A stretch of DNA of 36,069 bases from Acidobacteriaceae bacterium. GTDB lineage: Bacteria; Acidobacteriota; Terriglobia; Terriglobales; Acidobacteriaceae. Positions 15,032 to 30,027 of this stretch are shown here, piece by piece; positions within the stretch are counted from its first letter, which is position 1, and each line of letters begins with the position of its first letter. The notes under the pieces are model-generated. The model made no database searches. It was given only the letters and a program-made list of their open reading frames with translations, and was not told the origin of the DNA. The position numbers were made by a program, and so were the translations under genes. The stretch covers positions 1 through 36,069 of the forward strand of contig PLBE01000217.1 in NCBI GenBank assembly GCA_003134435.1, given 5' to 3'.

Positions 15032-16279
15032 ATGCGGATGCTGATCGAAATCGTTCGCCAGTCGCTGGCCACCCTCTGGGCCCACAAACTGCGCTCGTTC
15101 CTCACCATGTTTGGCATCGCATGGGGCGTCGGATCGCTGCTTCTGCTGGTGGGCTTGGGCGAAGGCTTTCGCAGCGGACAGGCCAAGCAACTGAAAAATC
15201 TAGGCCAGGATATTATGTTCACCTTCCCCGGCCGCATCCCCGCCGTCGAAGGCAGCACCCAGTCCGGCCGCACCTACCACTTCACCTATGAGGATTACCT
15301 CGCCATTCGCAGCGATGCCCGTTCGCTCAAATATCTTTCGCCGGTGCTCAATCGCGAAGACATTCGCGCCGTCAGCGATTATGGTTCGACGAACGGCCAG
15401 GTCTTTGGCATTGCGCCCGAGTATAACCACATCCGGAATATTCCCGTCGGCCCGGGCCGCTGGCTTAACGATGAGGACAATTCCGAAACCCGGCGTGTGG
15501 CCGTCGTCGGCTGGGAACTGTTGAAGAACATTTTTCCCGGTCGTCCGGCCGTGGGCTCTCCCATCCTGCTCAATGGCGTCCGCTTCGAAATCATCGGCGT
15601 GCTCAGTAAAGTAGGACAAGAGGGCAACAACGGCACCAATGCTCGCATCTTTATTCCCATCGAAACTATGCGCAACCTGTTTCGATTGAAAGATCAGAAC
15701 AGCGAAGACGCTATCTCTTTCCTCAACTACCGCCCGCTCATTCCCAGCGCGAATCTGGTCGCGAAGCAGGAAGTCCACGATATCATTGCCCGCCGCCATG
15801 GCTTCGATGCCAAACTCGAGGAATCATTTGAAGACTGGGACACCATCGAGGACAACAAGCGCGTGGAAAAGATCTTCGACGGCATGGATTATTTTCTCGG
15901 CGTCGTCGGCGTGATCACGCTGGCCCTGGGCGCCATCGGCATCATCAACATCATGCTCGTCTCCGTCACCGAACGTACCCGGGAGATCGGACTGCGTAAG
16001 GCCCTGGGCGCAACCCATCGCGCCATCATGACCCAGTTCTTTGTCGAAGGCGCCTTCCTGACCGCTCTCAGCGGAGGCATCGGCCTGGCCATCACCACTG
16101 CCTTGGTCGCCGCCCTCGCCGCCCTGCCCGCGCCTGAAGGATTCGACACTCCCCGCATCGTTCCGTCGTCCGCGGCCATTGCCATTTTCTCGCTGGCGCT
16201 AGCCGGCATCGTTGCCGGACTCTATCCCGCGCGTCAGGCCGCACTGCTGCCCCCGGTGGAGGCGCTGCGCCAGGAGTAG
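15032..16279 (+). CDS. MacB/FtsX-type ABC transporter permease 1
   Basis: Membrane subunit of a type VII (MacB-like) ABC system, 415 residues from ATG 15032; GTG 15014 is an alternative. One N-terminal helix (about residues 18-40, after LWAHKLRSFLTMFGIAWGVG) leads into a large periplasmic MacB_PCD domain (about 45-270), then three C-terminal helices of the FtsX domain with INIMLVSVTERTREIGLRKALGA, the loop that contacts the ATPase. Such proteins transmit ATP-driven movements to the periplasm for export of drugs, lipoproteins or peptides. No ATPase or HlyD-like adaptor gene is in the window, so the partner must be encoded elsewhere. The ribosome site is weak. It is followed after 25 bases by a second permease of the same type. 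Confidence 0.9.
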   Translation: MRMLIEIVRQSLATLWAHKLRSFLTMFGIAWGVGSLLLLVGLGEGFRSGQAKQLKNLGQDIMFTFPGRIPAVEGSTQSGRTYHFTYEDYLAIRSDARSLKYLSPVLNREDIRAVSDYGSTNGQVFGIAPEYNHIRNIPVGPGRWLNDEDNSETRRVAVVGWELLKNIFPGRPAVGSPILLNGVRFEIIGVLSKVGQEGNNGTNARIFIPIETMRNLFRLKDQNSEDAISFLNYRPLIPSANLVAKQEVHDIIARRHGFDAKLEESFEDWDTIEDNKRVEKIFDGMDYFLGVVGVITLALGAIGIINIMLVSVTERTREIGLRKALGATHRAIMTQFFVEGAFLTALSGGIGLAITTALVAALAALPAPEGFDTPRIVPSSAAIAIFSLALAGIVAGLYPARQAALLPPVEALRQE

Positions 16280-16304
16280 GCACCGCAGCGACTAAGGACC
16301 AACT

Positions 16305-17543
16305 ATGATTCTCGAACTCGCTCGCCAGGCCTACAACGCGCTGAAGCACAACCGCCGCCGCAGCATCCTCACCATGCTCGGGATGGCCTGGGGAATCGCC
16401 ACTGTTGTATTGCTGCTCGCTTACGGTTCCGGCTTCGAGCGCGGCCTCTGGGTTGCCTTCCGCTCCTGGGGCACGAACCTGGTCTTCGTGTTCCCCGGAC
16501 GCACATCCCTGCAAGCGGGCGGCACCAAAGCCGGCAGCGAAATCAAACTCACCGTCAACGATCTCGATTACCTTCAGGCGGAGGTGCCGCTGCTCAAGCG
16601 CATCTCGCCCGAAGCCTTCAAACAGAGCTCCGTCGCCTACGCCACCCGCAGTGGCAGTTACGGGATCAGCGGAGTCTATCCCTACTATCAGCACATGCGC
16701 CGCATCGAGGTCGAGAACGGCACCTTCTTCACCGATCTCGATGAGAACATCCACAGCCGCGTAGCTGTCCTCGGCGCCGACGTCAAGAAAAAATTGTTCT
16801 CCGGCGAGAACGCTCTCGGTGAAAAAGTCCGTATCGATGGCATTTCCTATGAGGTCATCGGGGTCCTCAAGCACGTCATTCAGAATGGCGACGACAATAT
16901 GAATGGCAAAGTCTACATCCCGTTTGGCGCCATGAACGACCTCACCAACACGTATTATCTCAACGCCATCGCCATGGAATACGAAGGCGACCACGAAAAG
17001 GTCGCTGCCGCCGTGCGCCGCTCCATGGCCTTCCACCACGAATTCGATCCCAAAGACGAGCGCGCCGTCTTTGTCTTCGACGTCTTTGCCGACCTTCTCG
17101 ATCTCCGTGTCATCACCACCGGCATCAAGATTTTGCTCGGCTTCATCGGCTTGCTCACGCTCGGCATCGGTGGCGTCGGTCTGATGAATATCATGCTCGT
17201 CTCCGTCACCCAGCGCACCCGTGAAATCGGCGTCGAGAAAGCCCTGGGCGCACGCGGTTGGCACATACTCATCCAGTTTCTCGCCGAAGCCCTCGTCATC
17301 ACCCTGCTCGGCGGACTCGCCGGCGTCGCCCTCGCCTACCTCGTCTCGTGGTCGGTCGGATCGCTCACCCTGTGGAGCGCGTTTGTCGAAAATGGCACCG
17401 AAGGCGACATTCACCTCACCATCGATTCCACCATCCTCATGGCCTCCACAATGATTCTTGCATTTGTCGGGATTATCAGCGGGATGATTCCCGCCATCAA
17501 AGCCTCGCGCCTCGATCCCATCGAAGCCCTGCGCTACGAATAG
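16305..17543 (+). CDS. MacB/FtsX-type ABC transporter permease 2
   Basis: Second membrane subunit of the MacB type, 412 residues, with an AAGGA ribosome site. It has the same plan as the preceding gene product: N-terminal helix after LKHNRRRSILTMLGMAWGIA, a periplasmic MacB_PCD domain, and three C-terminal helices with MNIMLVSVTQRTREIGVEKALGA. Overall similarity to permease 1 is evident but moderate, with different periplasmic domains (for example NGDDNMNGKVYIPFGAMND here). The pair probably forms a heterodimer, or two related homodimers, driven by an ATPase encoded elsewhere. It lies 25 bases after permease 1, surely the same transcript. Confidence 0.9.
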   Translation: MILELARQAYNALKHNRRRSILTMLGMAWGIATVVLLLAYGSGFERGLWVAFRSWGTNLVFVFPGRTSLQAGGTKAGSEIKLTVNDLDYLQAEVPLLKRISPEAFKQSSVAYATRSGSYGISGVYPYYQHMRRIEVENGTFFTDLDENIHSRVAVLGADVKKKLFSGENALGEKVRIDGISYEVIGVLKHVIQNGDDNMNGKVYIPFGAMNDLTNTYYLNAIAMEYEGDHEKVAAAVRRSMAFHHEFDPKDERAVFVFDVFADLLDLRVITTGIKILLGFIGLLTLGIGGVGLMNIMLVSVTQRTREIGVEKALGARGWHILIQFLAEALVITLLGGLAGVALAYLVSWSVGSLTLWSAFVENGTEGDIHLTIDSTILMASTMILAFVGIISGMIPAIKASRLDPIEALRYE

Positions 17544-17656
17544 GTCGCGCCGCGACAGTCTCCTCGCCCGTCCGCAAAGTCGGTCGCCGCCAGAAGGTCG
17601 GCAACCGCGTTCCTCCCGTGTGTTATATTTCTGACCACATTTACAGAGGAGGTTTT

Positions 17657-18088
17657 ATGCGCCCACTCGGTGTCACCCTGGTTGGTTTCTATCAGATTCT
17701 GCGCGGTGTGCTTTCCCTGTTATTCGGGCTCTCTGTCCTGCTCTTTGCCGGACTGGCCGCCAAACTCGCTTCCATGGCAGCCGAAGGCAACGCCGTCGAA
17801 CGTCTGCTGCGGGACTTCGGACACGTCGCCGGCTTGGGTATTGTCGTCTTTGCCATCGTGCACATGATTGCCGGCTATGGTGTCCTCCAGATGCAGAACT
17901 GGGGACGTCTCCTCACCGTCCTGTTTTCCGCTGTTGGCCTCGTGCTCGTTCTGCCCGGCATGATTCACGCCCATGTCTTCTCTTTGTTCTTTGGAGCCAT
18001 TAACGCCGCCTGCATCATCTACCTCGCGATGCCTCCGATCAAGCGCGCCTTCCAGGCTGAAGGCAAGACTTTGCGCATGGCCGCGTAA
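17657..18088 (+). CDS. Small four-helix membrane protein, function unknown
   Basis: 143 residues beginning MRPLGVTLVGFYQILRG after an AGAGGAGG ribosome site, which fixes the start at 17657 within a longer open frame. Four hydrophobic stretches are visible (about residues 5-35, 55-80, 88-108 and 112-132), joined by short polar loops. The pattern resembles small DUF-type integral membrane proteins with a GVxLxGxxxxxxGxL first helix, but I do not recognise a named family. It lies 113 bases after the MacB-like permeases on the same strand and might be cotranscribed. No enzymatic residues stand out. Confidence 0.8.
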   Translation: MRPLGVTLVGFYQILRGVLSLLFGLSVLLFAGLAAKLASMAAEGNAVERLLRDFGHVAGLGIVVFAIVHMIAGYGVLQMQNWGRLLTVLFSAVGLVLVLPGMIHAHVFSLFFGAINAACIIYLAMPPIKRAFQAEGKTLRMAA

Positions 18089-18215
18089 CCTGAAGCAGGT
18101 GGAACCGTCCACTTGTTTTTGAGGAGTGCGCTCTGGCCCTGAAGAGGTGAGGAAAAACTCGTGTGGTCACGACGCTTTTTACCCCGTTCAAAAATGTCCT
18201 CTCCTCCTGAGTACA

Positions 18216-18536
18216 ATGGAACCCGTGCCCGATTCCAGCCCTCTTCAAAAAGTCACCGATCACCTGCGACTCTACGATCACCCCCTGCTCTCCTTTTCCG
18301 CCCGTGACCATGACGGCGCCGTTGAAGTTCTGATCGATTTGAAAAACTCCTCCGTTCCAGTGCATACCTACGTCTTTCCCATCCATCCCCGCGATCTCGA
18401 TCATCCTCAGTTTGCCTGGCATCTTCAGCATCAGCTCTACGACGCCCTGCACGACTATTTCATCGAGATGTTTACCCGCACACCCCAGGATCGGAACAGT
18501 CCGACGCCTGCCAAGAATGCGCGCCAGGAAAGCTAG
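18216..18536 (+). CDS. Conserved hypothetical protein upstream of the methyltransferase
   Basis: 106 residues from ATG 18216; the frame is open further upstream to 18126, but that part lacks a ribosome site. Not recognised. The composition is ordinary for a soluble alpha/beta protein (VTDHLRLYDHPLLSFSARDH, VEVLIDLKNSSVPVHTYVFP). There is no signal peptide and the tail is polar and proline-rich. The stop lies only four bases before the methyltransferase GTG start, so the two genes form a translational pair and possibly act together. Frame and codon use fit neighbouring genes. Confidence 0.7.
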   Translation: MEPVPDSSPLQKVTDHLRLYDHPLLSFSARDHDGAVEVLIDLKNSSVPVHTYVFPIHPRDLDHPQFAWHLQHQLYDALHDYFIEMFTRTPQDRNSPTPAKNARQES

Positions 18537-18540
18537 CACC

Positions 18541-19683
18541 GTGTCTCTTCGCCAACAGATCGAGCAGGAGATCCGCCAGCACGGCCCCATCCCATTTTCG
18601 CGCTACATGCGGCTCTGCCTCTTCGATCCTGTCCATGGGTACTATGCCTCCCATGCCGGTCAATTCGGCAAAGCGGGAGACTTCTATACTTCGAGCGACA
18701 TCCATGCCGTTTTTGGACGGCTCCTGGCGCGCCAGTTCGATGAGATTTGGCGGGCGCTCGATCGTCCCCCGCGGATCGAGATTCTCGAACTCGGCCCCGG
18801 GCGGGGACTTTTCGCTCGCGATGTGCTGGATTGGTCGCGGAAGAAATTTCCCGACTTCTTCGCCGCCATCACCTACACGTTGCAGGAATCGTCGCCTGCG
18901 CTGCGAGCGAAACTGCCAGAGACTTTGCGCGAACATGTCGATACTCAGAAGGTAAACATCCCGGCCGCAGGTTCGGAGGATCAACCGAAGCGTCGTCTCG
19001 CCGCAGCGACTCCACTGATCGTCTTTGCCAACGAATTCTTTGACGCGCTCCCCGTGGAAATTCTCAGCCCCGCTGGTAAACTCCACATCACGCTTGAAAG
19101 CAGTCGCCTGCACGAAGTCTGGCTCCCGCCGCTCGCTGATGAACTGGAGTTCCTCGACCGCTACGGCGTTCTTCCCGAAGCCAACGAGCGCATCGAAGTG
19201 CCAGTCGTTGCCCGGGAGTGGGCCAACAGGATCGCCGCTGTCATCGCACGTGGCGTGCTGCTCGTCATTGACTACGGCTACACGCGGCGCGAACAAGTCG
19301 CCGGTCGCCACCGTGGCACGCTCATGGCCTATCGCCAGCACTCCGTCACTTCTGATCCCTACCAGGCTCCCGGCGAACAGGACCTGACCGCTCACGTCAA
19401 CTTCAGTGCCCTCGCCTCTGCCTGCGAACTGGCCGGAATGCGCTGCGAAAAACTCCGCACCCAGGCGCAGTTCCTCATGGGGATAGGCGAGATAAATCAG
19501 TTTGCCGATGCCTTCGAAGACTGCCGCATCCCCCAGGAACGCGCCAAAGTCGCTCTCCAACTCAAACACTTAGTCACGCCCGATGGCATGGGAGAGGGGT
19601 TTCAAGTGCTGATGGCCAGCCGGGACGTGGATCCCGCTCAGATCGCCACCCTCAGCGGCTTGAGCTTTGGCGGTGGATCTTAG
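18541..19683 (+). CDS. SAM-dependent methyltransferase, MidA/NDUFAF7 (DUF185) family
   Basis: Class I methyltransferase of 380 residues. The family includes mitochondrial NDUFAF7/MidA, which methylates an arginine of a complex I subunit; bacterial members are mostly uncharacterised. Visible signatures are PIPFSRYMRLCLFDPVHGYY near the N-terminus, the SAM-binding ILELGPGRGLFARDVL, VFANEFFDALPVEIL, and VIDYGYTRREQVAGRHRGTL. The start is GTG 18541 with AGGAAAG about 8 bases before it; ATG 18517 is an alternative overlapping the preceding gene. No respiratory complex I genes occur in the window, so the target is unknown. Confidence 0.9.
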   Translation: MSLRQQIEQEIRQHGPIPFSRYMRLCLFDPVHGYYASHAGQFGKAGDFYTSSDIHAVFGRLLARQFDEIWRALDRPPRIEILELGPGRGLFARDVLDWSRKKFPDFFAAITYTLQESSPALRAKLPETLREHVDTQKVNIPAAGSEDQPKRRLAAATPLIVFANEFFDALPVEILSPAGKLHITLESSRLHEVWLPPLADELEFLDRYGVLPEANERIEVPVVAREWANRIAAVIARGVLLVIDYGYTRREQVAGRHRGTLMAYRQHSVTSDPYQAPGEQDLTAHVNFSALASACELAGMRCEKLRTQAQFLMGIGEINQFADAFEDCRIPQERAKVALQLKHLVTPDGMGEGFQVLMASRDVDPAQIATLSGLSFGGGS

Positions 19684-19729
19684 TAACTCGCTGATCGCCC
19701 TCTGCAAAAATCAACGCCTCAAAAATCCC

Positions 19730-19758
19730 TTGTTTGCGTAAGTCGAGAAAGTTATACT
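19730..19758 (+). promoter_or_regulatory. Sigma-70-like promoter of the DUF2059 gene
   Basis: TTGTTT (19730-19735) and TATACT (19753-19758) are separated by an ideal 17-base spacer. The -10 lies 22 bases before the GTG start at 19781, predicting a very short leader containing GGAGG. Confidence 0.65.
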
Positions 19759-19780
19759 TTGCGCAGTGTGGAGGTTACCG

Positions 19781-20332
19781 GTGAAGCGCCTACTCTTGCT
19801 TGTCGCGACGGTCTTGGTGTTGGGTTGGACTTGTCTTGCCCAGACCAGCGTTGATGATTCTCCGGCCACCAAAGAAGATGTCGAAAAATATCTCCAGGCC
19901 ATCCATTCTCACGACATGATGAAGAAGATGGCGGCCTCCATGTCGCAGAGTATGCGTCAGTTGTTGCATGAGCAATATCTGAAGGACAAAGACAACCTCC
20001 CCGCCGACTACGAATCGAAGATGACCGCTCGGATGAACGACCTGTTCGATAACATGCCTTGGGATGATATGTTGCAAGCCATGGCTCCGGTCTACCAGAA
20101 GCACCTCACCAAAGGGGATATCGATAACCTGGTGGCGTTTTATTCTTCGCCAACCGGTGAGAAGCTGTTGCGGGAGATGCCTGCGATCATGGCGGAGTCG
20201 ATGCAAAATGCAATGCCGGTCATTCTCAAGTACTCGGAATCGGTGAAGCAAACCCTGTTGAAAGAAACTGACACGATGATTGCCCAGTCCAGGAAGCAAC
20301 CTGCCGGCAACGGTCAAGCCACCCATCAATAG
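19781..20332 (+). CDS. Secreted DUF2059-family protein
   Basis: 183 residues from GTG 19781, chosen because GGAGG lies six bases before it; an in-frame GTG at 19766 would place that site inside the gene. The N-terminus is a clear signal peptide (KRLLLLVATVLVLGWTCLAQ), so the protein is periplasmic or secreted. The mature part is alpha-helical, with the DUF2059 pattern YQKHLTKGDIDNLVAFYSSP followed by TGEKLLREMPAIMAESMQ (about residues 105-145). The biochemical function of this family is unknown. The gene has its own promoter and stands alone. Confidence 0.85.
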   Translation: MKRLLLLVATVLVLGWTCLAQTSVDDSPATKEDVEKYLQAIHSHDMMKKMAASMSQSMRQLLHEQYLKDKDNLPADYESKMTARMNDLFDNMPWDDMLQAMAPVYQKHLTKGDIDNLVAFYSSPTGEKLLREMPAIMAESMQNAMPVILKYSESVKQTLLKETDTMIAQSRKQPAGNGQATHQ

Positions 20333-20541
20333 CGTAGTCTGTCAGTTCGAATTGCTTCCATCGGGCGCGCGGTTGCAAAAGGTCGTCCGAGACCTTCCGT
20401 CGTGGCCGTAAATCATTGAAAATATGTTGCGCCTTAGCGCCTGCGAAGGGGCTCAAAGTCCAAAGGACCGGGTACCAAAGGTATGCACCATTTTCGCTGC
20501 ATTTAACATTCCTGAAATATCTTTCCAGTAAACTGCAGTTG

Positions 20542-21030
20542 ATGAGCTCGCCTCGGGTCTCTCGCTACGCCTTGCCCTTGCAGGTCGCTGCCGTCTGTTA
20601 CCGGCGGGTGAATTCTCATGCCGAGTTCCTGCTCGTCCACACCAACGGTGGCAACAAATGGACGTTTCCCAAGGGAGCCCCGGAGCCTCGTCTCTCGCAC
20701 AGCCAGGCCGCTGAACGCGAAGCCCGGGAAGAAGCGGGCGCCATCGGCACCATCGAGCCCCGACATTTCCATATCTACCTTCATTCCAAGGGCGTATTCT
20801 GGCAACCGGGCGGCGTGCAGGAATACGTGGTCAAGGCGTTTCTGATGGATGTTCGCCAGACCCGCACTCCCGACGAAGACAATCGCAATCCAACATGGTT
20901 CGATCCCGAAAGAGCCCGCGTCATCCTGGCCAAAGGCCGCGAAGTCAAATACGCCCACGAACTCCAGACCGTGATCGACCGCGCGTTGGAGCACATGGGC
21001 ATCACGCGCATGACCGCAAGCGCTCGATGA
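20542..21030 (+). CDS. Nudix hydrolase with altered Nudix box
   Basis: 162 residues from ATG 20542; the frame is open from 20416, but those residues are not conserved-looking. A Nudix fold hydrolysing a nucleoside-diphosphate-linked substrate is indicated by WTFPKG and the REAREEAG core (Nudix box GX5EX7REUXEEXGU). The metal-binding REXXEE glutamates are present, but the first conserved glutamate of the box is leucine (GAPEPRL). It resembles the short MutT/diadenosine-polyphosphate-like members. The substrate cannot be predicted. The ribosome site is weak. It stands between the DUF2059 gene and the ABC-F gene on the same strand. Confidence 0.85.
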   Translation: MSSPRVSRYALPLQVAAVCYRRVNSHAEFLLVHTNGGNKWTFPKGAPEPRLSHSQAAEREAREEAGAIGTIEPRHFHIYLHSKGVFWQPGGVQEYVVKAFLMDVRQTRTPDEDNRNPTWFDPERARVILAKGREVKYAHELQTVIDRALEHMGITRMTASAR

Positions 21031-21135
21031 AGAACCGGTCGCGATCCACATTGTCAAACACCGGACTTTTTGCCAAAAGCTGACGCCTGACCGCTGTTCG
21101 CCGATCTTCCTCCGCTATATTTAGAAGAGACACCC

Positions 21136-23100
21136 ATGATCCAACTCTCCGGTGCCGGGAAGCGCTACGGCCACAAACTGCTGTTCGAAAACGCCGACTG
21201 GTTGATCACGCCCGAATCGCGCATCGGCCTGGTGGGAGCAAACGGCACCGGCAAGTCGACTATCATGAAGATCCTTGCCGGGAGCGAGACGCTCGACTAT
21301 GGGAACATCTCGCGCGCCAAGGGCATCTCCACCGGCTACCTTCCCCAAGACGGCCTTACTCTCACTGGCCAAACCATTTTTGCCGAGTGCTTGTCCGTGT
21401 TCTCCGAAATGCACGCCATCGAAAAGGAAATGGAGTCGCTCACCCGCAGCATGTCCGAACTTGACCATCAGAGCGTCGAGTATTCGGACGTCGCCGACCG
21501 TTATCAGAAACTTGAACATGAATTCGTAGCCCGCGACGGCTACACCCTCGAAGCGCAAGTCGGTCAAGTGCTCACCGGCCTTGGCTTCCACCGCGACGAC
21601 TGGACGCGCCGCACGGAAGAATTTTCGGGCGGCTGGCAGATGCGCATCGCGCTCGCCAAACTTCTGCTCCAGAAACCCAACCTGCTGCTGCTCGACGAAC
21701 CCACCAACCACCTTGACCTGGAGGCCCGCAACTGGCTGGAGGAGTACCTGACCACCTATCCTTACGCGTACGTCATCATTTCGCATGACCGCTACTTTCT
21801 CGACATCACTGTGAAGCGCATCGTCGAGATATGGAACAAGCAGATGCATTTCTACGCTGGCAACTACGATCAATACCTGGCTGGCAAGACGGCGCGGAAA
21901 GAACAAATTGAAAACGCTTACAAGACGCAGCGCGACCGCATCGAACAGCTTGAAGTATTTATCAACCGCTTCCGCTACACGGCGACCAAGGCCAAGCAGG
22001 TGCAGAGCCGCATTAAAGAACTGGAAAAAATGGAGCGGATCCAGATTCCAGAAGAAGAGAAGACGGTCCACTTTTCTTTTCCTCAGCCGAAGCCCAGCGG
22101 ACGCATCGTTGCCGAGTTTGCCAACGTCGCCAAGAGTTACGGCGATCGCGGGACCAATGAACACAAAGTTTTTGGGAATGTAAATTTCATGATCGAGCGC
22201 GGCGAACGCATCGCGCTGGTCGGCGTCAACGGGGCAGGGAAGTCGACCTTGATCAAGTTGCTGGCGCAGCAGGAAAAGCTGACTGCGGGTGAATACAGAC
22301 TGGGCCACGAGGTGCATCTCGACTACTTCGCGCAGGACCAATACAAAGAGCTCGATCCCGAGGCCCGCATTCTCGACGACCTCGGCGAGCTTTCAGGCGC
22401 ATCCACGCAAACCGAGTTGCGCGGTCTGCTGGGGTGTTTCCTGTTCTCGGGCGACGACGTGTTCAAGCGCATCGGCGTTCTTTCCGGAGGCGAGCGCAAC
22501 CGCTACGCTCTGCTGAAGATGCTGCTGCATCCTGCCAACTTTTTGCTGCTCGATGAGCCCACGAACCATCTCGACCTGCGCGCCAAAGACGTTTTGCTCG
22601 AGGCGCTGATGAAGTACACGGGCACGGTGGTCTTTGTTTCGCACGACCGCTACTTCATCGACAAGCTGGCCACGCGAGTGTTCGAGATTGGCGACGGCCG
22701 AGTGGAAATCTACCCGGGAAATTATGAGGATTATCTGTGGCGGAAGCAGGGGAGAGCGGCGGTTGCCAAAGAAGAGCCAAAACCATCCCCCCTATCGTCT
22801 CCGCCCCCCGCCATTCCCGTGAACGGGGCCGGCGGCCTGGCGGCCGAGGCGGCCGAACCAAAGGGCAAGCGCATGAACCCGATCAAGCGCCAGCAGATGG
22901 AGGACCGTCTGCACGAGATCGAGGAAGAGATTGCCCGAGCCGAAGCGGCGATCGGGCTGTGCGAGACGGCGCTGCAGAGCTTCGTCAGCGTGGAGGAGAC
23001 GCAGCGGCGGACGCAGGAACTGGCGAAGAGGAAGCAGGAGCTGCAGAGTCTGATGACGGAGTGGGAGGAAGTTTCGGGGGCGCTGGAGGTTGGCGGTTAG
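21136..23100 (+). CDS. ABC-F family ATPase (Uup/YbiT-like)
   Basis: Soluble ribosome-associated ABC-F protein of 654 residues with two ATPase domains and no membrane part. Domain 1 has GANGTGKST, FSGGWQMRIAL and LLLLDEPTNHLDL; domain 2 has GVNGAGKST, LSGGERNRYAL and FLLLDEPTNHLDL. Between them is the helical P-site tRNA-interaction linker (about residues 250-310, rich in Arg and Lys). A Pro-rich spacer and a C-terminal coiled coil (about 575-650, rich in Glu, Gln and Arg), as in Uup, complete the protein. Family members act on stalled ribosomes, in ribosome assembly or in antibiotic resistance; which applies here is unknown. The start ATG follows AGAAG. Confidence 0.95.
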   Translation: MIQLSGAGKRYGHKLLFENADWLITPESRIGLVGANGTGKSTIMKILAGSETLDYGNISRAKGISTGYLPQDGLTLTGQTIFAECLSVFSEMHAIEKEMESLTRSMSELDHQSVEYSDVADRYQKLEHEFVARDGYTLEAQVGQVLTGLGFHRDDWTRRTEEFSGGWQMRIALAKLLLQKPNLLLLDEPTNHLDLEARNWLEEYLTTYPYAYVIISHDRYFLDITVKRIVEIWNKQMHFYAGNYDQYLAGKTARKEQIENAYKTQRDRIEQLEVFINRFRYTATKAKQVQSRIKELEKMERIQIPEEEKTVHFSFPQPKPSGRIVAEFANVAKSYGDRGTNEHKVFGNVNFMIERGERIALVGVNGAGKSTLIKLLAQQEKLTAGEYRLGHEVHLDYFAQDQYKELDPEARILDDLGELSGASTQTELRGLLGCFLFSGDDVFKRIGVLSGGERNRYALLKMLLHPANFLLLDEPTNHLDLRAKDVLLEALMKYTGTVVFVSHDRYFIDKLATRVFEIGDGRVEIYPGNYEDYLWRKQGRAAVAKEEPKPSPLSSPPPAIPVNGAGGLAAEAAEPKGKRMNPIKRQQMEDRLHEIEEEIARAEAAIGLCETALQSFVSVEETQRRTQELAKRKQELQSLMTEWEEVSGALEVGG

Positions 23101-23406
23101 GGGCGGGGCGTCGAAACCTGCAAATCGACGAAGTGTTCCACGTGGAACGTTGAACGTACCGTAATATACTTATTATTATGTACATGCAATGATGGCAGAT
23201 TGAACAAACCGCTGGGGTTACGGGCGGTCGGGCGGGGTGCGAGAACTGGAAGCTTCGGGATGCTCTTGCGGTCGTGTATAGGTTACTCGAGCGGTGATTG
23301 GCAAGATGAGCGCGGCCACAGGGGAGAGTGGGGCGGCTGCCGAACTGCGGTCGGCTGGGAGGGGCGAGGGCGCCCGTCGCTACACGGAACCTTTCACTCG
23401 AAGAAG
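23101..23406. other. Convergent intergenic region holding a parS-like site
   Basis: 306 bases between the convergent ABC-F and mglA genes. Apart from the parS-like palindrome, it holds an AT-rich stretch (about 23160-23190) and G-rich sequence. No convincing gene or terminator was seen. Confidence 0.6.
23134..23149. promoter_or_regulatory. parS: Candidate parS (ParB-binding) site
   Basis: GTTCCACGTGGAAC (23135-23148) is a perfect 14-bp palindrome, and with the flanking bases (TGTT...AACG) it matches 15 of 16 positions of the parS form TGTTCCACGTGGAACA. This is close to the general bacterial parS TGTTTCACGTGAAACA. It lies in a non-coding gap between convergent genes. ParB would load here and spread as a clamp to help chromosome segregation; such sites usually lie near the replication origin. 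The identification rests on the sequence match alone. Confidence 0.7.
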
Positions 23407-23994
23407 CTAGCCGCCTTGCTTCAATTCGGTGAGTACTTGCTTGGCGATTTCTTTGAGGGTTTCGAACACGCCTATGCCCTGGAAGGCGACAGCCTCGACG
23501 ACGGGCTCGTTCTTCTTGCGCAGTTCCCGGGAGAGTGCGTCCACCGGGAGGATGTTGGGGAGGTCGCGTTTGTTTAACTGCAGGACGTAGGGAATCTTGT
23601 TGAAGTCGTAGCCGTGTTCTTTCAGGTTGGTCATCAGGTTGTCGAGGGCTTCGACGTTGGCGTCCTGGCGCTCCTGCTGGGAGTCGGCAACGAAGACGAC
23701 GCCGTCGACGCCGCGCAGAATGAGCTTGCGGCTGGCGTCATAGAAGACCTGTCCGGGGACGGTGTAGAGGTGAATGCGGGTCTTGAAGCCGCGGACGGTG
23801 CCCAGATCGAGGGGCAGGAAGTCGAAGAACAAGGTTCGATCGGTCTCGGTGGCGAGCGAGATCATCTTGCCCTTCTGCTGTTCTGCTGTTTTCTGGAAGA
23901 TGAACTGGAGATTCGTCGTTTTGCCGCCCAACCCGGCGCCGTAGTAGACGATTTTGCAGTTGATCTCGCGTGCTGCGAAGTTGATGAAACTCAA
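23407..23994 (-). CDS. mglA: MglA-type small GTPase
   Basis: Bacterial Ras-like GTPase of 195 residues, the polarity and motility switch in Myxococcus and widespread elsewhere. The P-loop is GAGLGGKTT (residues 19-27). The switch region carries TVPGQ, the MglA-type replacement of DxxG by TxxG, and the base-recognition motif is NKRDLP. The start is TTG at 23994, read because the conserved N-terminus [18 protein letters not shown] begins right there and TGAGGA lies six bases upstream; no usable ATG exists. The usual partner mglB is not adjacent. The protein probably acts on cell polarity or surface machinery. Confidence 0.95.
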
Positions 23995-24098
23995 GAGGTT
24001 TCCTCAGAAACTCTAGCGAAAAAGGCGCTTGCGCGCGGCTGCAGTGTCGCGAGCCCAGCCGCACATCCATCTGACTGCCGTGTCGGTTACTGCTGATT

Positions 24099-24107
24099 TT
24101 TATACCA
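24099..24107 (-). promoter_or_regulatory. Possible extended -10 promoter of mglA
   Basis: On the minus strand TGGTATAAA reads as an extended -10 (TGn-TATAAA), about 105 bases before the TTG start. No good -35 was seen, which such promoters do not need. Confidence 0.4.
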
Positions 24108-24182
24108 CACCGGGCGGTTCCGGCGCAGGTTACTCACGTTACTAAACCATCACGGGCTCAACTGCTTAGCGTCTGCGCTGCG

Positions 24183-25505
24183 CTACCGCGGCGTGGGCAG
24201 AGGATAGTATCCGGCTTTGGCATACACTTTCATGTCAGCCCGACGCACCTGCACATTGATGTCGCGATAGCCTCCAATGGTGGATTTAGGGGAATACCCG
24301 AGGGTGTATTGATTGCGGGCTTCTCCGATGGCGTTGGCGTAGGCGCGCTCGATATTGGCCTGCGACAATTCATTGTAAACGGTGCCGCCACCTGTGGCGC
24401 TGACGTATTTAGGCAGAATGTCGCTGTAGCCGATGGCCGCCCGTGTCTTGGGCAGGTGGATGCGCTCCAACTTGTCGTAGATGGGGATGGCGGCGCCTTC
24501 GACGCCCACGGCGTAGACGGTGATGTTCTGGGTGAGCAGAACTTTCAAAGTGTCTTTGTAGCTGGCGACCGAACCCTGTTCGCGTCCGTCGCTGATGATG
24601 AAGATGATCTTGCGGCGGGTGCGATCGCGCTTGGACAAATCGCGCGCGGCCTGCAGGATCGCGTCGTTCATCACGCGCGATTCCTTCGGCGGTGTGCTCA
24701 CCGGGTTTACCGGAGAGTTGATGGGAATTCCGTTGATGTAGGGGCCCTGCGGGCCCAGCGGACCGCTGGTGATGGGAGGGCCATTATTGGCTCCGCTGTA
24801 AGCCTTGACCTGATTCAGAGCAACCGTCAACTGCTTGCCCACGCTGGTGAAGTCCGCTACCCGGCCCACGGTACTGCTGTAGGTGTAAATCGAGACTTCA
24901 TCGAACTGGCTGAATGCTCCCTGCAACGCGGGCAGAGTTTCCTGAACCTTTTTCAAAGCGACGTCCGGGATGCCAGTATCGAAAATTATTGCTGCCGACA
25001 AAGCAAAGGGATCGCTGGTGAAGAATTTAAGGGTCTGCCTCTGTCCATTTTCCAGGACCGAGAAATCCTTGGGGAGCAAGCCCCCGACCAAGTGTCCATT
25101 GCTGTCTTTTACCGTAACCGGAACCAGCACCAAGGTGGTAGTGGCCCGGTATTTGTAGAGCTCTTCGCCGGTGTCGAGATCCTTAGGCACGCTGCCGGCG
25201 GGCACGGTCTTTACGGGAGGCATCGGCGGTGGTGTTGCCGACTTGTCGTACACGATATCGGGAGCGCTATGCGGGAGCTCTTTTGACCCGGTGGTCACGC
25301 CCTCCCCGGAATTATCCATCGGGGGCGTATCGCGTTGAACGTTGTCGTCGGCTTCCTGCCGCGGACTAGGGGTTTCGGGCGGTGGTATGGGACGGGTGGC
25401 CGAGGGAGCGTCCGGGATATCCTCCGGCTTCTGTTGTGCCGCCAGAGTGCCCACCAGCAACAATGCCAGACCGAGAATCAATACCGCGCTAGTTCTTGTG
25501 GCCAT
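24183..25505 (-). CDS. Secreted VWFA-related protein with degenerate MIDAS
   Basis: 440 residues from ATG 25505, chosen for the GAGGA site six bases upstream (an in-frame ATG at 25532 would be less good). A signal peptide (ATRTSAVLILGLALLLVGTLAAQQ) precedes a Pro-rich region (about 25-110), then the VWFA-related Acidobacterial module: a leading beta segment (VPVTVKDSNGHLVGGLLPKD) and a von Willebrand A domain (about 165-410). The MIDAS strand reads IIFDTGIPD (Asp176) rather than DxSxS, so metal binding is doubtful. An insert with GPLGPQGP lies around 24725-24790. The module ends with an RNQYTLGYSP segment typical of the family. It is divergently paired with a related gene, and the role is unknown. 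Confidence 0.88.
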   Translation of the reverse strand: MATRTSAVLILGLALLLVGTLAAQQKPEDIPDAPSATRPIPPPETPSPRQEADDNVQRDTPPMDNSGEGVTTGSKELPHSAPDIVYDKSATPPPMPPVKTVPAGSVPKDLDTGEELYKYRATTTLVLVPVTVKDSNGHLVGGLLPKDFSVLENGQRQTLKFFTSDPFALSAAIIFDTGIPDVALKKVQETLPALQGAFSQFDEVSIYTYSSTVGRVADFTSVGKQLTVALNQVKAYSGANNGPPITSGPLGPQGPYINGIPINSPVNPVSTPPKESRVMNDAILQAARDLSKRDRTRRKIIFIISDGREQGSVASYKDTLKVLLTQNITVYAVGVEGAAIPIYDKLERIHLPKTRAAIGYSDILPKYVSATGGGTVYNELSQANIERAYANAIGEARNQYTLGYSPKSTIGGYRDINVQVRRADMKVYAKAGYYPLPTPR

Positions 25506-25564
25506 CCGGAATCCTCTTTTATCCTGCTTCATTATTATCTAATATTTCCGAAATCACGCCGGAA

Positions 25565-25705
25565 GCTTTTTGCTAGTCAGATGCCCGGCAGCGCACTTTT
25601 GGTGCATCTAACCGTTGGAGCGTCTAACCTGGTGCGTTTAACCACCGTGCGTCTAACCAGGGCGGACGCTTACAGGATAGACTAGCAAAGTCTCGGGATA
25701 AAAAG
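25565..25705. repeat. Four GTGCGTCTAACC-like repeats within an inverted repeat
   Basis: GTGCATCTAACC (25602-25613), AGCGTCTAACC (25619-25629), GTGCGTTTAACC (25632-25643) and GTGCGTCTAACC (25647-25658) follow one another with periods of 16, 14 and 15 bases. They are flanked by the perfect 9-bp inverted pair TTGCTAGTC (25570-25578) and GACTAGCAA (25680-25688). A second pair lies further out: AGCTTTTT (from about 25565) and AAAAAGCT (near 25699). The block lies between two divergent VWFA genes. It could be a multi-copy operator for both, or a small mobile element. Confidence 0.65.
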
Positions 25706-25708
25706 CTG

Positions 25709-26872
25709 ATGCTTAACGTACATTGCAAATGGTGCCCGGCTACAGGCGAGTGGGCGGTGGCCTTCTTCAACAAGCATGCGGTGAACTTCGGTCTGGCGAC
25801 GGTTGCGCTGGCGGCGCTGTCCATTGCGGCCGTGGCGCAGAACCGTCCGGTTCCGGCTCCGCCACCACCAGCCGCGTCCTCAACCGGACCGACCTCGAAT
25901 AGTGACTCCGCGCAGTCGGCTAACCCCAATTCGGGAGACCAGTCGCTCGACCAATCGGTCGAGACCTTGAAGGTCAGCGTGGAAGTAGTGCAACTATTTT
26001 TCAACGTGAAGGACAAGCACGGGGCGCTGATTCCCAATCTGAACAAGGACAACTTCGAAATTTTCGAGGATGGCAAGCCCCAGACCATCAAGTATTTCAA
26101 GGCGGAATCGGATCTGCCGTTGACGCTCGGCATCCTCATCGATTCCAGCGGCAGCCAGATGCGCGTCCTGGATATGGAAAAGACAGTGGGAGGCTCTTTT
26201 CTGGAGAGCACGCTGCGGCCGAAGGACGAGGCTTTTGTGATCAGCTTTGATGTCGATATTAACCTGCTGCAGGATTTCACCAATTCCGTGAGCCGGCTCA
26301 AACACGCGCTCAACGCGGCCCGGATCAATACTGGAGGAGTGAGTTGCTCGGGCGGACCGATTGGGCCGCAGGGTCCGATTCCGTGCTCTTCCACCGGGCC
26401 GCGGGGCACGGCACTGTATGACGCGGTGTATCTGGCGTCGCACGACGAATTCAGCCACGAGGTTGGGCGTAAGGCGATGATCCTGCTGACGGACGGGGAA
26501 GACGAAGGCAGCAAGCTGAAGATCAAAGACGCCATCGAAGCGGCGCAGAAAGCCGATGCCATTTGTTATGTGTTGCTGATCGCGGACCGGGGTTTCTATG
26601 GATTCGGCGGTTACTCCGGCGATTCCGAAATGAAGAAGTTGACGCAGGAGACCGGAGGGCGGGTGATCGAAGTCGGCAACAAGATTGAAAAACTGCGCCA
26701 GGCTTTCGACCAGATTTCGCAGGAGCTTCGGAGCCAATACAACATTGGCTATGTGCCGACGAACACGGTTCGCGACGGATCATTCCGCAGAGTGGAGATC
26801 AAGCCCAACCAGTCGGACTACAAGATTCAGACTCGCAGCGGATATTACGCCACGGGGCGCCACGAGGACTGA
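25709..26872 (+). CDS. Secreted VWFA-related protein with intact MIDAS
   Basis: 387 residues from ATG 25709; GTG 25757 with AGGCGAG before it is an equally good start and gives a shorter, cleaner signal peptide (AFFNKHAVNFGLATVALAAL). After a Pro/Ser-rich linker come the family's leading segment (VVQLFFNVKDKHGALIPNLN) and a von Willebrand A domain with a proper MIDAS (ILIDSSGSQM, Asp145). A glycine/proline insert GPIGPQGPIPCSSTGPRG occupies about 26350-26406, matching the one in the divergent gene. The C-terminal SQYNIGYVPTN matches the partner's NQYTLGYSP. It is probably an exported adhesion or scaffold protein; the ligand is unknown. Confidence 0.88.
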   Translation: MLNVHCKWCPATGEWAVAFFNKHAVNFGLATVALAALSIAAVAQNRPVPAPPPPAASSTGPTSNSDSAQSANPNSGDQSLDQSVETLKVSVEVVQLFFNVKDKHGALIPNLNKDNFEIFEDGKPQTIKYFKAESDLPLTLGILIDSSGSQMRVLDMEKTVGGSFLESTLRPKDEAFVISFDVDINLLQDFTNSVSRLKHALNAARINTGGVSCSGGPIGPQGPIPCSSTGPRGTALYDAVYLASHDEFSHEVGRKAMILLTDGEDEGSKLKIKDAIEAAQKADAICYVLLIADRGFYGFGGYSGDSEMKKLTQETGGRVIEVGNKIEKLRQAFDQISQELRSQYNIGYVPTNTVRDGSFRRVEIKPNQSDYKIQTRSGYYATGRHED

Positions 26873-26962
26873 GGCGAGGTTTGAATGGGCCACATGGGTT
26901 ATCCTGTCGAAAGAGGTAGAGTTCGAATCAAAGCGTTGGCTAACGGGTTGTGACGCAAGATT

Positions 26963-26993
26963 CTGCAACATCTCTGCAACATTTCTGCAGCAT
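26963..26993. repeat. Three 11-bp spaced CTGCAACAT copies
   Basis: CTGCAACAT occurs at 26963-26971 and 26974-26982, with CTGCAGCAT at 26985-26993, an exact 11-base period. This equals about one helical turn per copy and suits cooperative binding on one face. It lies between the VWFA gene and the first beta-helix gene. Confidence 0.45.
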
Positions 26994-27032
26994 CGGGCCG
27001 TGTATTTCATTTGCGGGAACTGCAACTTCCAA

Positions 27033-27115
27033 TTGCGCTGACCAGTTCTTAACGATATAGTTAAAGACCGGTTGTGACTTCCGCACAGCCTCGCGCCTTG
27101 TAACGCCAGGCGTTA
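27033..27115 (+). promoter_or_regulatory. Promoter and palindromes before beta-helix gene 1
   Basis: TTGCGC (27033-27038) and TATAGT (27056-27061) have a 17-base spacer. TTAAC-GATATA-GTTAA (27049-27064) is a palindrome over the -10. Downstream, TAACGCC-A-GGCGTTA (27101-27115) is a 7-bp perfect inverted repeat in the leader, 25 bases before the start codon. These look like operator positions for a repressor or a leader hairpin. Confidence 0.6.
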
Positions 27116-27140
27116 TCGACCCACCTACGGAGGAACATCA

Positions 27141-28442
27141 ATGCATCCCAGTGGTATCTCCAGGTTTTCTGGACTCTTCCTGATTTTGATGGCGATGGCC
27201 GCATTGGGCGGGCAGGCATTCGCGGGCTATGCGGCAGTGGGCACGTGCACTCCTCCGACTGCGGTAACTCCGGCGCACACTTTCACGACTATCCAAGCGG
27301 CGGTGACGGGTTCGGCTCCAGGAACGACGATCCAGATTTGCCCCGGCACTTATCCGGAACAAGTTAAGATCTCGAAGAAAATGACGCTGCAAGGAGTGAT
27401 CGATCCTACGGCGCCGACGGTGAATTACGCGGCGATTGTGCCGCCGGTGGCAGGCATGTCGGTGAATGCGTATGACGTGGACGATGCGCACGCGATCGCC
27501 GCCCAGGTGTTAGTGGAAAATACATTCTCCGCATTAGTAAGCCTGAACAACCTGACGATCGACGGAACGGGGAACCAGATTGGGGGCTGCGCTCCGGATC
27601 TGGTGGGCATTCTTTTCCAAAATGGCTCGGGGATTGTGAATCACGTGGCGGTGCGCAACCAGTTACTCGGCGACGTGCTGAGTGGTTGCCAGGCGGGGGA
27701 GTCGATCTGGGCGCAGACGGCAACTGGCCAAACCTCGAAAGTGACGATCGAGAATAGTTCGGTGCACAATTACAACAAGAATGGAATCACGGGCAATGAT
27801 ACGGGGACGACGCTGGTGCTGATTGATGATGTGGTCCAGGGATCTGGGCTGAATCCGGTAGGGCTGGCGGCGCAGAACGGGGTCCAGATCGCGTATGGCG
27901 CGACCGGAAAGATGACCAGCAATACGGTGATCGACAATCTTTATGGGGATCCGACGAGCTATGTTTCGGCTGACGTACTGCTCTTCGATACGGCGGAGAA
28001 TAGCGGAGTGGCGATCGTGAGCAACACCTTCGGCAACAGCCAGATTCCGCTCTACGTGGGTACGGACACGCCGGGAACCTATGGCGACGGAGTGACGATC
28101 ACGGGCAATCACATCTTTGGGTCGGATGTTTTTGACGCCATCGATGTTTGCAGCAACGGCAATTCGGTGACGGGCAATGTAGTTTCTAATAGCGCGGAGT
28201 CGGCGATCCACCTGGATGGATCGTGCGGAGGGACGGGCAACAGCAACACGGCGACCGGAAACACGATTCTGGAAAGCGCATGCGCCGGGATTCTGGCCGA
28301 TCCGGGAACCAGCGGCAACACGACCACGGGTGACACTTACTACACGATGCCTTTCACGATCACCAGCACGACTGCATCTTGCACGATTCCTTTAGGACCG
28401 GCGCGGGTGAAGGCGGGGAACAAGTTCAGCCCGAAGCGATAA
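27141..28442 (+). CDS. Secreted right-handed beta-helix protein 1
   Basis: 433 residues with a GGAGG ribosome site. A signal peptide (GLFLILMAMAALGGQAFA) is followed by the parallel beta-helix pattern of short Thr/Asn/Gly-rich repeats (IQAAVTGSAPGTTIQICPG, GVTITGNHIFGSDVFDAIDV). It resembles pectate-lyase-like/NosD-type folds that bind or cut polysaccharides. No lyase catalytic residues are obvious. Eight cysteines outside the signal match those of the next gene product. The protein is probably extracellular or periplasmic. Its duplicated downstream partner and their matching promoters and terminators indicate tandem duplication. Whether it is an enzyme or a binding protein is unknown. Confidence 0.87.
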   Translation: MHPSGISRFSGLFLILMAMAALGGQAFAGYAAVGTCTPPTAVTPAHTFTTIQAAVTGSAPGTTIQICPGTYPEQVKISKKMTLQGVIDPTAPTVNYAAIVPPVAGMSVNAYDVDDAHAIAAQVLVENTFSALVSLNNLTIDGTGNQIGGCAPDLVGILFQNGSGIVNHVAVRNQLLGDVLSGCQAGESIWAQTATGQTSKVTIENSSVHNYNKNGITGNDTGTTLVLIDDVVQGSGLNPVGLAAQNGVQIAYGATGKMTSNTVIDNLYGDPTSYVSADVLLFDTAENSGVAIVSNTFGNSQIPLYVGTDTPGTYGDGVTITGNHIFGSDVFDAIDVCSNGNSVTGNVVSNSAESAIHLDGSCGGTGNSNTATGNTILESACAGILADPGTSGNTTTGDTYYTMPFTITSTTASCTIPLGPARVKAGNKFSPKR

Positions 28443-28473
28443 AGCGCGACGAGTCGGGTGCGAGAGTTAAGAA

Positions 28474-28505
28474 CGCCGGAAATCGGACTTTAGATTTCCG
28501 GCGTT
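28474..28505 (+). terminator. Hairpin terminator after beta-helix gene 1
   Basis: ACGCCGGAAATC (28474-28485) pairs perfectly with GATTTCCGGCGT (28494-28505) around an 8-base loop; a weak T-rich tail follows. The stem core CGCCGG-AATC recurs in the terminator of the paralogue. Confidence 0.75.
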
Positions 28506-28643
28506 GTTGCGTTTATACGGATTACTTCCTTGGGGCTAGTGCATACCCGGCGGGCACTTAGTAACTCGAAGCAGGATGGGGAGAAGGTGCTGCGAGACTT
28601 CGGAAGAATTGGGTTCGTGTAACTGAGCTGTGCAAAACAAGAG
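28506..28643. other. Spacer between the two beta-helix genes
   Basis: The gap after the hairpin holds no gene or recognisable repeat. With the hairpin and the following promoter, the whole intergenic distance is 304 bases. Confidence 0.5.
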
Positions 28644-28672
28644 TTGCATTGAAGGCTGCATCGGATTATAGT
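28644..28672 (+). promoter_or_regulatory. Sigma-70-like promoter of beta-helix gene 2
   Basis: TTGCAT (28644-28649) and TATAGT (28667-28672) have an exact 17-base spacer, as in the promoter of gene 1 (TTGCGC-17-TATAGT). The -10 lies 74 bases before the start codon. Confidence 0.65.
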
Positions 28673-28746
28673 TGGCGCGGTTTACTTCCCCATGGGCCCT
28701 AGTTCGAGAAGTTCAACAATCACCCATACCTTCCGGAGGAAGATCA

Positions 28747-30027
28747 ATGAAGTTGACTCGTGGTTTCGCATTTTCCTGTCTCGCTCTCGTCGTGCTTGCC
28801 GCGTTTAGCGGGCAAGCGTTTGCAGCCCATTATGCTCAAGTCGGTTCATGCACACCTCCTAACCCTCCTTTGCACACGTACGTTACGATCCAGGCTGCGG
28901 TAACGGCTTCCCCTGCGGGAACCGTCATCGAGATTTGTCCGGGCACTTATCCGGAGCAGGTCACGATCGGCAAGAACTTGACTCTCGAAGGCGTGGGCAA
29001 CCTGAGTTCGGACGCGGTCGTGATTCTGCCTCCTGCCGGAGGAGTAGTTCAGAACGCGACGGATGTGTCGAATAGCGATCCCATTGCGGCGCAGATATTA
29101 GTTCAGTTCGCCACGGTTTCGATCAGCAATCTCACGGTAGACGGAACCGGGAACGGGCTGTTAAACACATGTACGCCCGATTTTGACGGCATCCTGTTTC
29201 AGAATGCTTCGGGCACGGTGAATCACGTTGCGGTGCGCAACCAACTGTTGGGCGACGTTCAAGGTGGTTGTCTTACGGGCGACCCGATCTACGTCGAGAC
29301 TGGAAACGGGTACACCTCGACGGTGACGGTGGAGAACAGTTCTGTTCACAACTACAACCGGAACGGGATCACGGGACGGTATGCGGGGACGACGCTGAAC
29401 GTCAATGGCACTTACGTTCAGGGAGCGGGACCGCTTGGGCTGGGATATGCGGCTCAGAACGGAATTGAAGTGGGTTTTGGAGCGAAGGGGAAAATCACCA
29501 CGAACACGGTGATCGACAATTCTTATGTAGGTCCGACGTATGGAGCATCCAGTATTTTGCTATACGGTGCGGAGGAGAACTCGTCGATCACAGTGACGGG
29601 AAATATACTCGGCAACAGTCAGATTCCGATCGGGCTGTACTCCAACGGCCAAGCCGGACAACTTAACAACGGGGTCACGGTTACGGGTAATAAAATCTTT
29701 GGGACGCCGACGTTCGACGCCATCGATGTTTGCAGCAACGGCAACGTAGTCACGGGAAACACGATTTTCAATAGTGCTGAATCGGGCGTGCATCTGGACG
29801 CGTCCTGCGGCGGCACCGGGCAGAACAATAACGCCCTGAGTAATACCATTTTGGAAAGCGCTTGTGCCGGCGTTCTTGACGATTGGAGCGCCACGGGCGG
29901 CAATAGTTACTCCAGTGAAACTTACTACACGGTGCCATTCCCAGTTGCTTATTCGGCTGGCGGATGCACCATTCCAGGAGAACTGGCACGCGCTAAGACG
30001 GTACACAGGGTAAGGCCGTCAGAATAG
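28747..30027 (+). CDS. Secreted right-handed beta-helix protein 2
   Basis: 426 residues from ATG 28747, set by the GGAGG site and a clean signal peptide (KLTRGFAFSCLALVVLAAFS); the frame is open earlier from 28672. It is a close paralogue of the preceding protein: same repeats (IQAAVTASPAGTVIEICPGT, VNHVAVRNQLLGDVQGGC, FDAIDVCSNGNVVTGN, LESACAGVL) and the same eight mature cysteines. It probably has the same fold and binding role, with divergence concentrated in loops. The gene is transcribed separately, with its own promoter and strong terminator. The catalytic role is unknown. Confidence 0.88.
   Translation: MKLTRGFAFSCLALVVLAAFSGQAFAAHYAQVGSCTPPNPPLHTYVTIQAAVTASPAGTVIEICPGTYPEQVTIGKNLTLEGVGNLSSDAVVILPPAGGVVQNATDVSNSDPIAAQILVQFATVSISNLTVDGTGNGLLNTCTPDFDGILFQNASGTVNHVAVRNQLLGDVQGGCLTGDPIYVETGNGYTSTVTVENSSVHNYNRNGITGRYAGTTLNVNGTYVQGAGPLGLGYAAQNGIEVGFGAKGKITTNTVIDNSYVGPTYGASSILLYGAEENSSITVTGNILGNSQIPIGLYSNGQAGQLNNGVTVTGNKIFGTPTFDAIDVCSNGNVVTGNTIFNSAESGVHLDASCGGTGQNNNALSNTILESACAGVLDDWSATGGNSYSSETYYTVPFPVAYSAGGCTIPGELARAKTVHRVRPSE

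Follow-up and report, generated by a model that had tools for sequence, protein, structure and literature searches.

Descriptions of chromosomal parS usually place this palindrome near the replication origin. In the part of PMC3899335 that was available, its copies are usually origin-proximal, and Myxococcus xanthus also has one distant site. To leave parS and to spread by sliding, ParB needs CTP (PMC7053999 and PMC8367383, available sections). On plasmid RK2, KorA stalls the ParB-family clamp KorB at target promoters (PMC11790492, available sections). A search of titles in the open literature found no paper on parS together with BrnA, Acidobacteria, ribbon-helix-helix proteins, or an antitoxin plus a repeat element. 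The site analyzed here is probably a parS with an adjoining array of a second palindromic motif in a 14-bp register, which would be bound by a partner protein, the best candidate being a BrnA-like protein. Such composites are a dispersed class in one Acidobacteriota genus and consist of parS and up to three TGTACGTACA-like units.

The window, i.e. the whole analyzed stretch of 36,069 nucleotides, is contig C147 of G000, a draft genome of 5.75 Mb in 261 contigs. An earlier note on this DNA had described a parS-like palindrome in a non-coding gap between convergent genes. The gap is real and has a length of 306 bp, and the perfect 14-bp palindrome is present in it (Table 1). The note had given a 16-mer, of which the inner 14 bp are indeed palindromic, whereas the outer T (23134) and G (23149) are unpaired. 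In a comparison with the Noc-binding site NBS, the window site has the CACGTG core of parS. The palindrome is the sole match with up to two mismatches in the window, and at least one such match was found in 13 of 100 shuffles of the window, and therefore, the window by itself is weak evidence. The gap also holds a stretch of about 55 bp (23332-23396), a dispersed repeat with dozens of matches of 82–89% identity in at least four relatives (G001, G010, G011, and G014) among the matches listed. Elsewhere in the window, a VWA protein is encoded that matches the acidobacterial family TIGR03436, which places the organism in Acidobacteriota. A structured RNA or single-strand hairpin was also considered and rejected: the window and the loci L076, L079, L080, and L153 yielded no Rfam match at the gathering score, and the fold z-scores were -0.24 for 23120-23230 and -0.20 for one tail copy from G014.

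Table 1. Positions of the palindrome, the array units, and the neighboring genes in the window
Feature	Position	Strand	Remark
parS, perfect 14-bp palindrome GTTCCACGTGGAAC	23135..23148	.	predicted ParB loading site
Array unit 1, GAACGTAC	23152..23159	+	7/8 to GTACGTAC, begins 3 bases after parS
Array unit 2, ATACTTAT	23166..23173	+	degenerate, 5/8, 14 bp on from unit 1
Array unit 3, GTACATGC	23180..23187	+	6/8, 14 bp on from unit 2
ABC-F family ATPase gene, left neighbor	21136..23100	+	ribosomal protection-like by NCBIfam
Small Ras/Arf-like GTPase gene, right neighbor, convergent	23407..23994	-	conserved DNA starts here in relatives; similarity to six of them (G001, G002, G010, G011, G014, G015) picks up again at 23405-23408

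The count over the whole genome settles the reality of the site, because G000 contains 10 exact copies of the palindrome versus about 0.024 expected (zero-order model, if the G+C content is 60%), and the reversed pattern, used as a control, had no exact copy in G000. Two further places match with one mismatch and 27 with two. The palindrome does not occur at random frequency, and three of the ten exact copies are located at parA, within 210 bp upstream of its likely start codon and with parB adjoining. At this locus, parB is truncated, and the gene beside the parA-upstream copies is rsmG-like, a name that we take from its translation. The other seven exact copies are single, one each on seven different contigs. 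Three copies directly upstream of parA, seven single ones, and a total far above expectation make parS the natural reading. Both one-mismatch places look like background, because they have no array beside them and one lies inside an ORF of 759 aa. The motif was counted at 101 sites in ten genomes, 71 of which are single; sites on C196, C207, and C290 of G014, C119 and C180 of G028, and C168 and C274 of G019 lie outside this set. With a crude ORF caller, the nearest genes are convergent at 23 of the 71 single sites, co-directional at 24, and divergent at 9, while 13 sites lie inside ORFs of at least 150 aa, which are often doubtful, and 2 at an edge. A convergent gap is thus not a general property of the sites.

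The earlier note had seen the parS and missed the phased array next to it. The three units in the window have a total score of 18/24, which is reached at no other place in the window (both strands, one-base shift allowed) and in none of 20,000 shuffled flank sequences. On one side of each of the seven single G000 copies, GTAC-like words are found at offsets 3, 17, and 31 (counted outward), frequently with a second word at 7, 21, and 35, and the scores of these copies are 15–19/24, compared with 7–11 on either side of the three parAB copies. Every one of the 17 exact GTAC words that start within 42 nt of the seven single sites is at offset 3 or 7 modulo 14. The array unit is itself a TGTACGTACA-like palindrome, and the units are centered 14, 28, and 42 bp from the parS center, so that parS and units form one 14-bp ladder. 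For nine genomes of the genus (128 flanks), 96 of 106 GTAC words fall into the classes 3, 4, 5, 7, and 8 modulo 14; in G028, which belongs to another genus, the 14 flanks contain no GTAC word and none of the 7 sites examined has an array. A score of 12 was used as the array cut-off in the later comparisons and was passed by 45 of the 71 single sites. Because the sites were gathered by the exact palindrome, composites with a mutated parS are under-counted; two of these came up via their gene. A separate observation concerns L166 (C108 of G028, another genus of the family): six parS copies of this genome are clustered near parA, within about 670 bp, and nine more are located in other places, of which the seven examined lack GTAC arrays.

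Exact copies of GTTCCACGTGGAAC, called the TCC form, are present in 42 of 61 genomes (G000 itself and members of its genus, family, order, and class), with 0 to 19 copies per genome. In genus members that have no GTTCCACGTGGAAC and a readable region upstream of parA, the sites in this region are GTTTCACGTGAAAC, called the TTC form, or near variants of it. Genus members with GTTTCACGTGAAAC at parA also have GTTTCACGTGAAAC dispersed genome-wide. In 13 genomes of the genus, both exact forms were looked for, and 11 of these genomes contained a single form; G017 and G018 had GTTCCACGTGGAAC as well as GTTTCACGTGAAAC. Hybrid sites, combining the two forms, occur upstream of parA in G001, G018, and G022, the parAB piece of G029 has just a two-mismatch site, and no site was found in the parAB pieces examined from G003, G004, G007, and G032.

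Seventeen ParB proteins were aligned and assigned to groups according to the form of the exact sites upstream of parA, leaving out G000 (cut short) as well as G002 and G013 (ParB outside the stretch examined), and 16 of them reach the recognition helix. One residue of this helix splits the groups in all 16 proteins, SRE[T/S] versus SRE[Q/K]: the nine ParBs of the TCC group all have Thr or Ser, and the seven of the TTC group all have Gln or Lys. It is the sole separating column that is filled in all 16 proteins, the others being gappy, and it was equated by eye with Caulobacter position 175, using the G-x-S-R....N pattern and the residues named in the available part of PMC7383237. The ParB of G000 itself ends at the contig edge before the HTH, and its residue would be expected to be that of its relatives; the cut fragment scores 91.3 versus a Noc cut-off of 315, a value that holds for the fragment only. 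On the ParB tree with the discriminating column masked, the form label needs 3 changes (bootstrap 2–4), compared with a mean of 5.5 for shuffled labels; 15 of 500 shuffles were as low as 3, and the starred branches force 1 change only. The Thr-bearing ParB of G010, which is included in the 16, is located beside three GTTCCACGTGGAAC sites. G010 has a second ParB (L217, contig C10) with Gln, and its stretch holds a GTTTCACGTGAAAC site; the draft is rated 6% contaminated, and contamination is possible. ParB-family proteins were also seen in open frames of about 540–620 aa in G002, G003, G008, G012, G018, G031, and G050, mostly beside a shorter ParB of the chromosomal type.

The form changes at parA and genome-wide together and the ParB residue follows the form, and therefore, the palindrome appears to evolve together with ParB, as its target. 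Strong support for the parS identity comes from the parA-upstream copies, the joint change of form, and the ParB residue in 16 of 16 proteins, and the palindrome is almost certainly a genuine parS of ParABS. The likeness to a parS form of other phyla, claimed in the earlier note, also held, and the 16-mer TGTTCCACGTGGAACG is the Myxococcus xanthus consensus in the available part of PMC3899335. The joint shift of the parS form and of one ParB residue represents a natural experiment on ParB specificity.

Among the genomes with TTC-form sites, G007, G009, and G018 as well as one G004 site have a clear array, G006 has another layout, and the array is absent or weak in G003, G008, and G017. Summed over the TTC-form genomes, 49 of the 60 GTAC words that start within 42 nt fall into classes 3–5 or 7–9 modulo 14, and the phase is looser than in the TCC group. 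Since the array persists beside TTC parS, its reader looks distinct from the changing ParB; the array looks recognized by something that stayed unchanged when ParB changed. Most sites of G002 and G019 have low scores, the array being weak or missing there. Thus, parS alone seems to be enough in G002, G019, G028, G003, G008, and G017.

The occurrence of the composite in other lineages was analyzed with a scan of genome_contigs (one genome per species, 84,980 species) for a GTTCCACGTGGAAC-form parS followed by GTAYGTAC at 12–20 bases. The pattern was matched by 33 stretches, 29 of which are from Acidobacteriota MAGs. The other four (Sphingomonas, Shewanella, Kurthia, and Uhrbacteria) have flank scores of at most 13/24 at any parS of the stretch. 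The composite is thus almost confined to Acidobacteriota. Four viral contigs also match the pattern, with flanks that are closely alike; a phage-borne array is unsupported, as these flanks reach 8–12/24 versus 15–19 in G000, and no viral contig matched the TTC form of the composite.

The G000 copy on contig C82 precedes a gene for a 90-aa protein of the BrnA antitoxin family (PF14384), and this layout recurs in relatives; the proteins from L160 (G015), from C82, and others are over the PF14384 cut-off. By family, BrnA proteins are ribbon-helix-helix proteins. An exact parS is found 0–500 bp upstream of 22 of the 61 PF14384 genes of 22 genomes, compared with 0.12 expected, and the other 39 genes have none at this distance. 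This count covers the genomes with parS positions in one exact form, including G028, and omits G005, G016, G023, and the more distant relatives other than G028. All 61 genes but one are from the genus, as are the 22 parS-linked ones; in 11 of the latter, the matched protein domain begins 51–57 bp after the end of the parS. The 16 best-scoring distinct genes come from loci that were partly picked for parS; 13 of them are accompanied by an exact parS, and 2 by one with a single mismatch, at roughly the usual distance. G011 contains arrays, yet the parS of its single PF14384 gene has one mismatch. No toxin family, BrnT or other, was found among the 10 neighboring ORFs of two cassettes, and the BrnA-like genes look solitary. 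The protein has a basic N-terminal stretch. Its AlphaFold2 model (two sequences) had a mean pLDDT of 60.5, too low to use, and a search by sequence yielded no solved relative, with one match at chance level (E 0.66). On plasmids, the L160 protein has BrnA-family matches in 631 records, chiefly from Acinetobacter.

The majority of the composites, including that of the window, have no gene. BLAST matched the window to L160 of G015 with 76% identity. A brnA relic in the window was nevertheless rejected, as a profile of eight intact genes found nothing significant there. Applied to 45 composites, the profile matched the eight gene-bearing ones and, among the others, only L171 of G011, weakly (E 0.0025).

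The turnover of the site was analyzed by probing seven relatives with positions 16000-30000 of the window. All seven match. The flanks of the gap are on a single contig in six of them and on different contigs in G012. None of the six readable orthologous gaps contains an exact parS, and the best match in them has at least 4 mismatches of 14 (the G014 gap being seen in part). The genome-wide site lists have no exact parS on the contigs with the orthologous gap, and the three exact sites of G010 are all at parA. The orthologous gap has about 0.9–1.9 kb in G010, G014, and G011 (L301, L302, and L304), with a different sequence in each, and less than 150 bp in G015. The locus of the window's parS is an insertion-prone gap.

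Some composites are common to relatives, e.g. those on C141 of G000 and C25 of G014 (86% over 658 bp). In G014, six copies have about 200 bp in common, including a tail that comprises GCAAGTCATTGATAATGCT and what follows it, and this tail is also found 3′ of the intact BrnA-like gene in L080. The tail word was found with up to three mismatches 10 times in G014, twice in G000, 4 times in G012, and not in G015; its reversed control gave one match in G014 and one per strand in G015. In part, the composite resembles a small dispersed cassette in its behavior, because the window site has no exact counterpart in the six readable relatives and the G014 copies have a common tail. A tail of about 100 bp with inverted repeats of the TGTGG..CCACA and TTACA..TGTAA types was observed at the end of parS-bearing repeats in L076, L077, L079, L081, L082, and L085 of G014 and behind the BrnA-like gene in L080. 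In L153 (C154 of G000, parS at L153:18554), the tail motif is upstream of parS, not downstream, as if two elements once adjoined.

Two readings concern the site as such. That the palindrome arose by chance, or is an E-box-like site for a different regulator, would be compatible with the weak evidence of one site in 36 kb, given the 13 matching shuffles, but it is hardly credible in view of the 10 exact genome copies, the change of form with ParB, and the conserved flank. The earlier note had regarded the site as a member of an origin-proximal cluster. For this speak the mostly origin-proximal position of known parS (PMC3899335, in its available part), the three copies at parAB, and the skew flip near parAB in G015. 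In that genome, parAB is at about 103 kb of contig C12 and the sign flips between samples at 85–105 kb and 170–190 kb, although the sampling is sparse and noisy and the sign flips several more times. However, the singles of G000 are on seven contigs, and of those of G015, two are located at 364 and 641 kb of C12, at distances of about 0.26 and 0.54 Mb to parAB, with two others on C1 and C10. We regard cluster membership as unlikely. That the site places this region in an origin-proximal ParB domain is not supported, with the dispersed singles in both genomes and none of six relatives having the site.

The other readings concern the array and the gene. The site could be an ordinary parS, with the GTAC words as further degenerate ParB sites that aid spreading or bridging: the unit xTTGTACGTACAAx has.TT..ACGT..AA in common with parS and is equal in length (14 bp) and register. 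Because the units remain GTAC-like even in genomes with the TTC form of parS, ParB sites in the array are disfavored, and the parAB-proximal G000 copies are without GTAC units; we consider this reading improbable. A stronger competitor, although we still hold it to be below an even chance, is that parS and array serve as promoter/operator for a solitary BrnA-like cassette, small and either mobile or decaying, with parS as a passenger or ParB as a regulator and the gene-less copies as remnants. The distance of 51–57 bp in half of the linked genes, the common 200 bp of the six G014 copies with a tail that also follows the gene in L080, and the absence of an exact parS from all six readable orthologous gaps would fit. 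Against it, neither a transposase nor consistent ends were seen in the loci inspected, short of a systematic search, the window has no gene relic, and parS is perfect in gene-less copies though their spacers diverge, the one-mismatch G000 copies being at background level.

Under the preferred reading, parS with a partner-bound array, ParB would load as a CTP clamp at the parS of the composite, and the adjoining array would be filled by a second DNA-binding protein. The array-bound partner would hold or steer ParB on the array side, and a small ParB complex would form locally at each composite, at a distance from the parAB cluster. The second protein would be the solitary BrnA-like protein that is encoded just 3′ of the array in the more complete copies. 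We infer a protein on the array, its BrnA-like identity, its effect on ParB, and any segregational or regulatory role from the arrangement of the motifs and genes. That a second protein acts at the array is probable. Its identity with the BrnA-like protein has roughly an even chance. Stalling of the clamp by the array-bound partner, which is drawn from an analogy, is rather doubtful. KorA, the partner in this analogy, is presumably unrelated to BrnA. It is conceivable, though somewhat unlikely, that the composites form a two-protein centromere-like element, in which scattered ParB clamps would be held one-sided by an antitoxin-derived ribbon-helix-helix protein on the array and which would spread as a cassette and outlive the loss of the gene.

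Many copies in one genus lie elsewhere and have a companion motif in fixed register, unlike the usual near-origin parS. The palindrome is identical with the chromosomal parS of ParABS in the form of Pseudomonas aeruginosa and Myxococcus xanthus, with copies at parAB and elsewhere as here (PMC3899335 and PMC7022226, available parts). Compared with that system, dispersed singles with a phased second motif at their edge that turn over between species are found here. Noc and NBS are a ParB paralogue and an altered palindrome, and few residues change the specificity; in the present case, the ParB of the parAB locus changes, and the residue equated by eye with Caulobacter 175 is not among the four switch positions in the available part of PMC7383237. 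The gene 3′ of the array matches the same family, PF14384, as the antitoxin of the type II toxin-antitoxin system BrnT-BrnA, but here no toxin was found at the two cassettes examined, the protein has a basic N-terminal stretch, and a parS lies in front. KorB-KorA of RK2, a clamp and a second DNA-binding protein, is a model for how the composite might function. It differs in being a plasmid repression system with a clamp that travels up to 1.5 kb to its target (PMC11790492, available sections). Here, the array, a putative operator, abuts parS. The composites offer a natural test of whether a partner can position ParB clamps on chromosomes, like KorA does for KorB on a plasmid.
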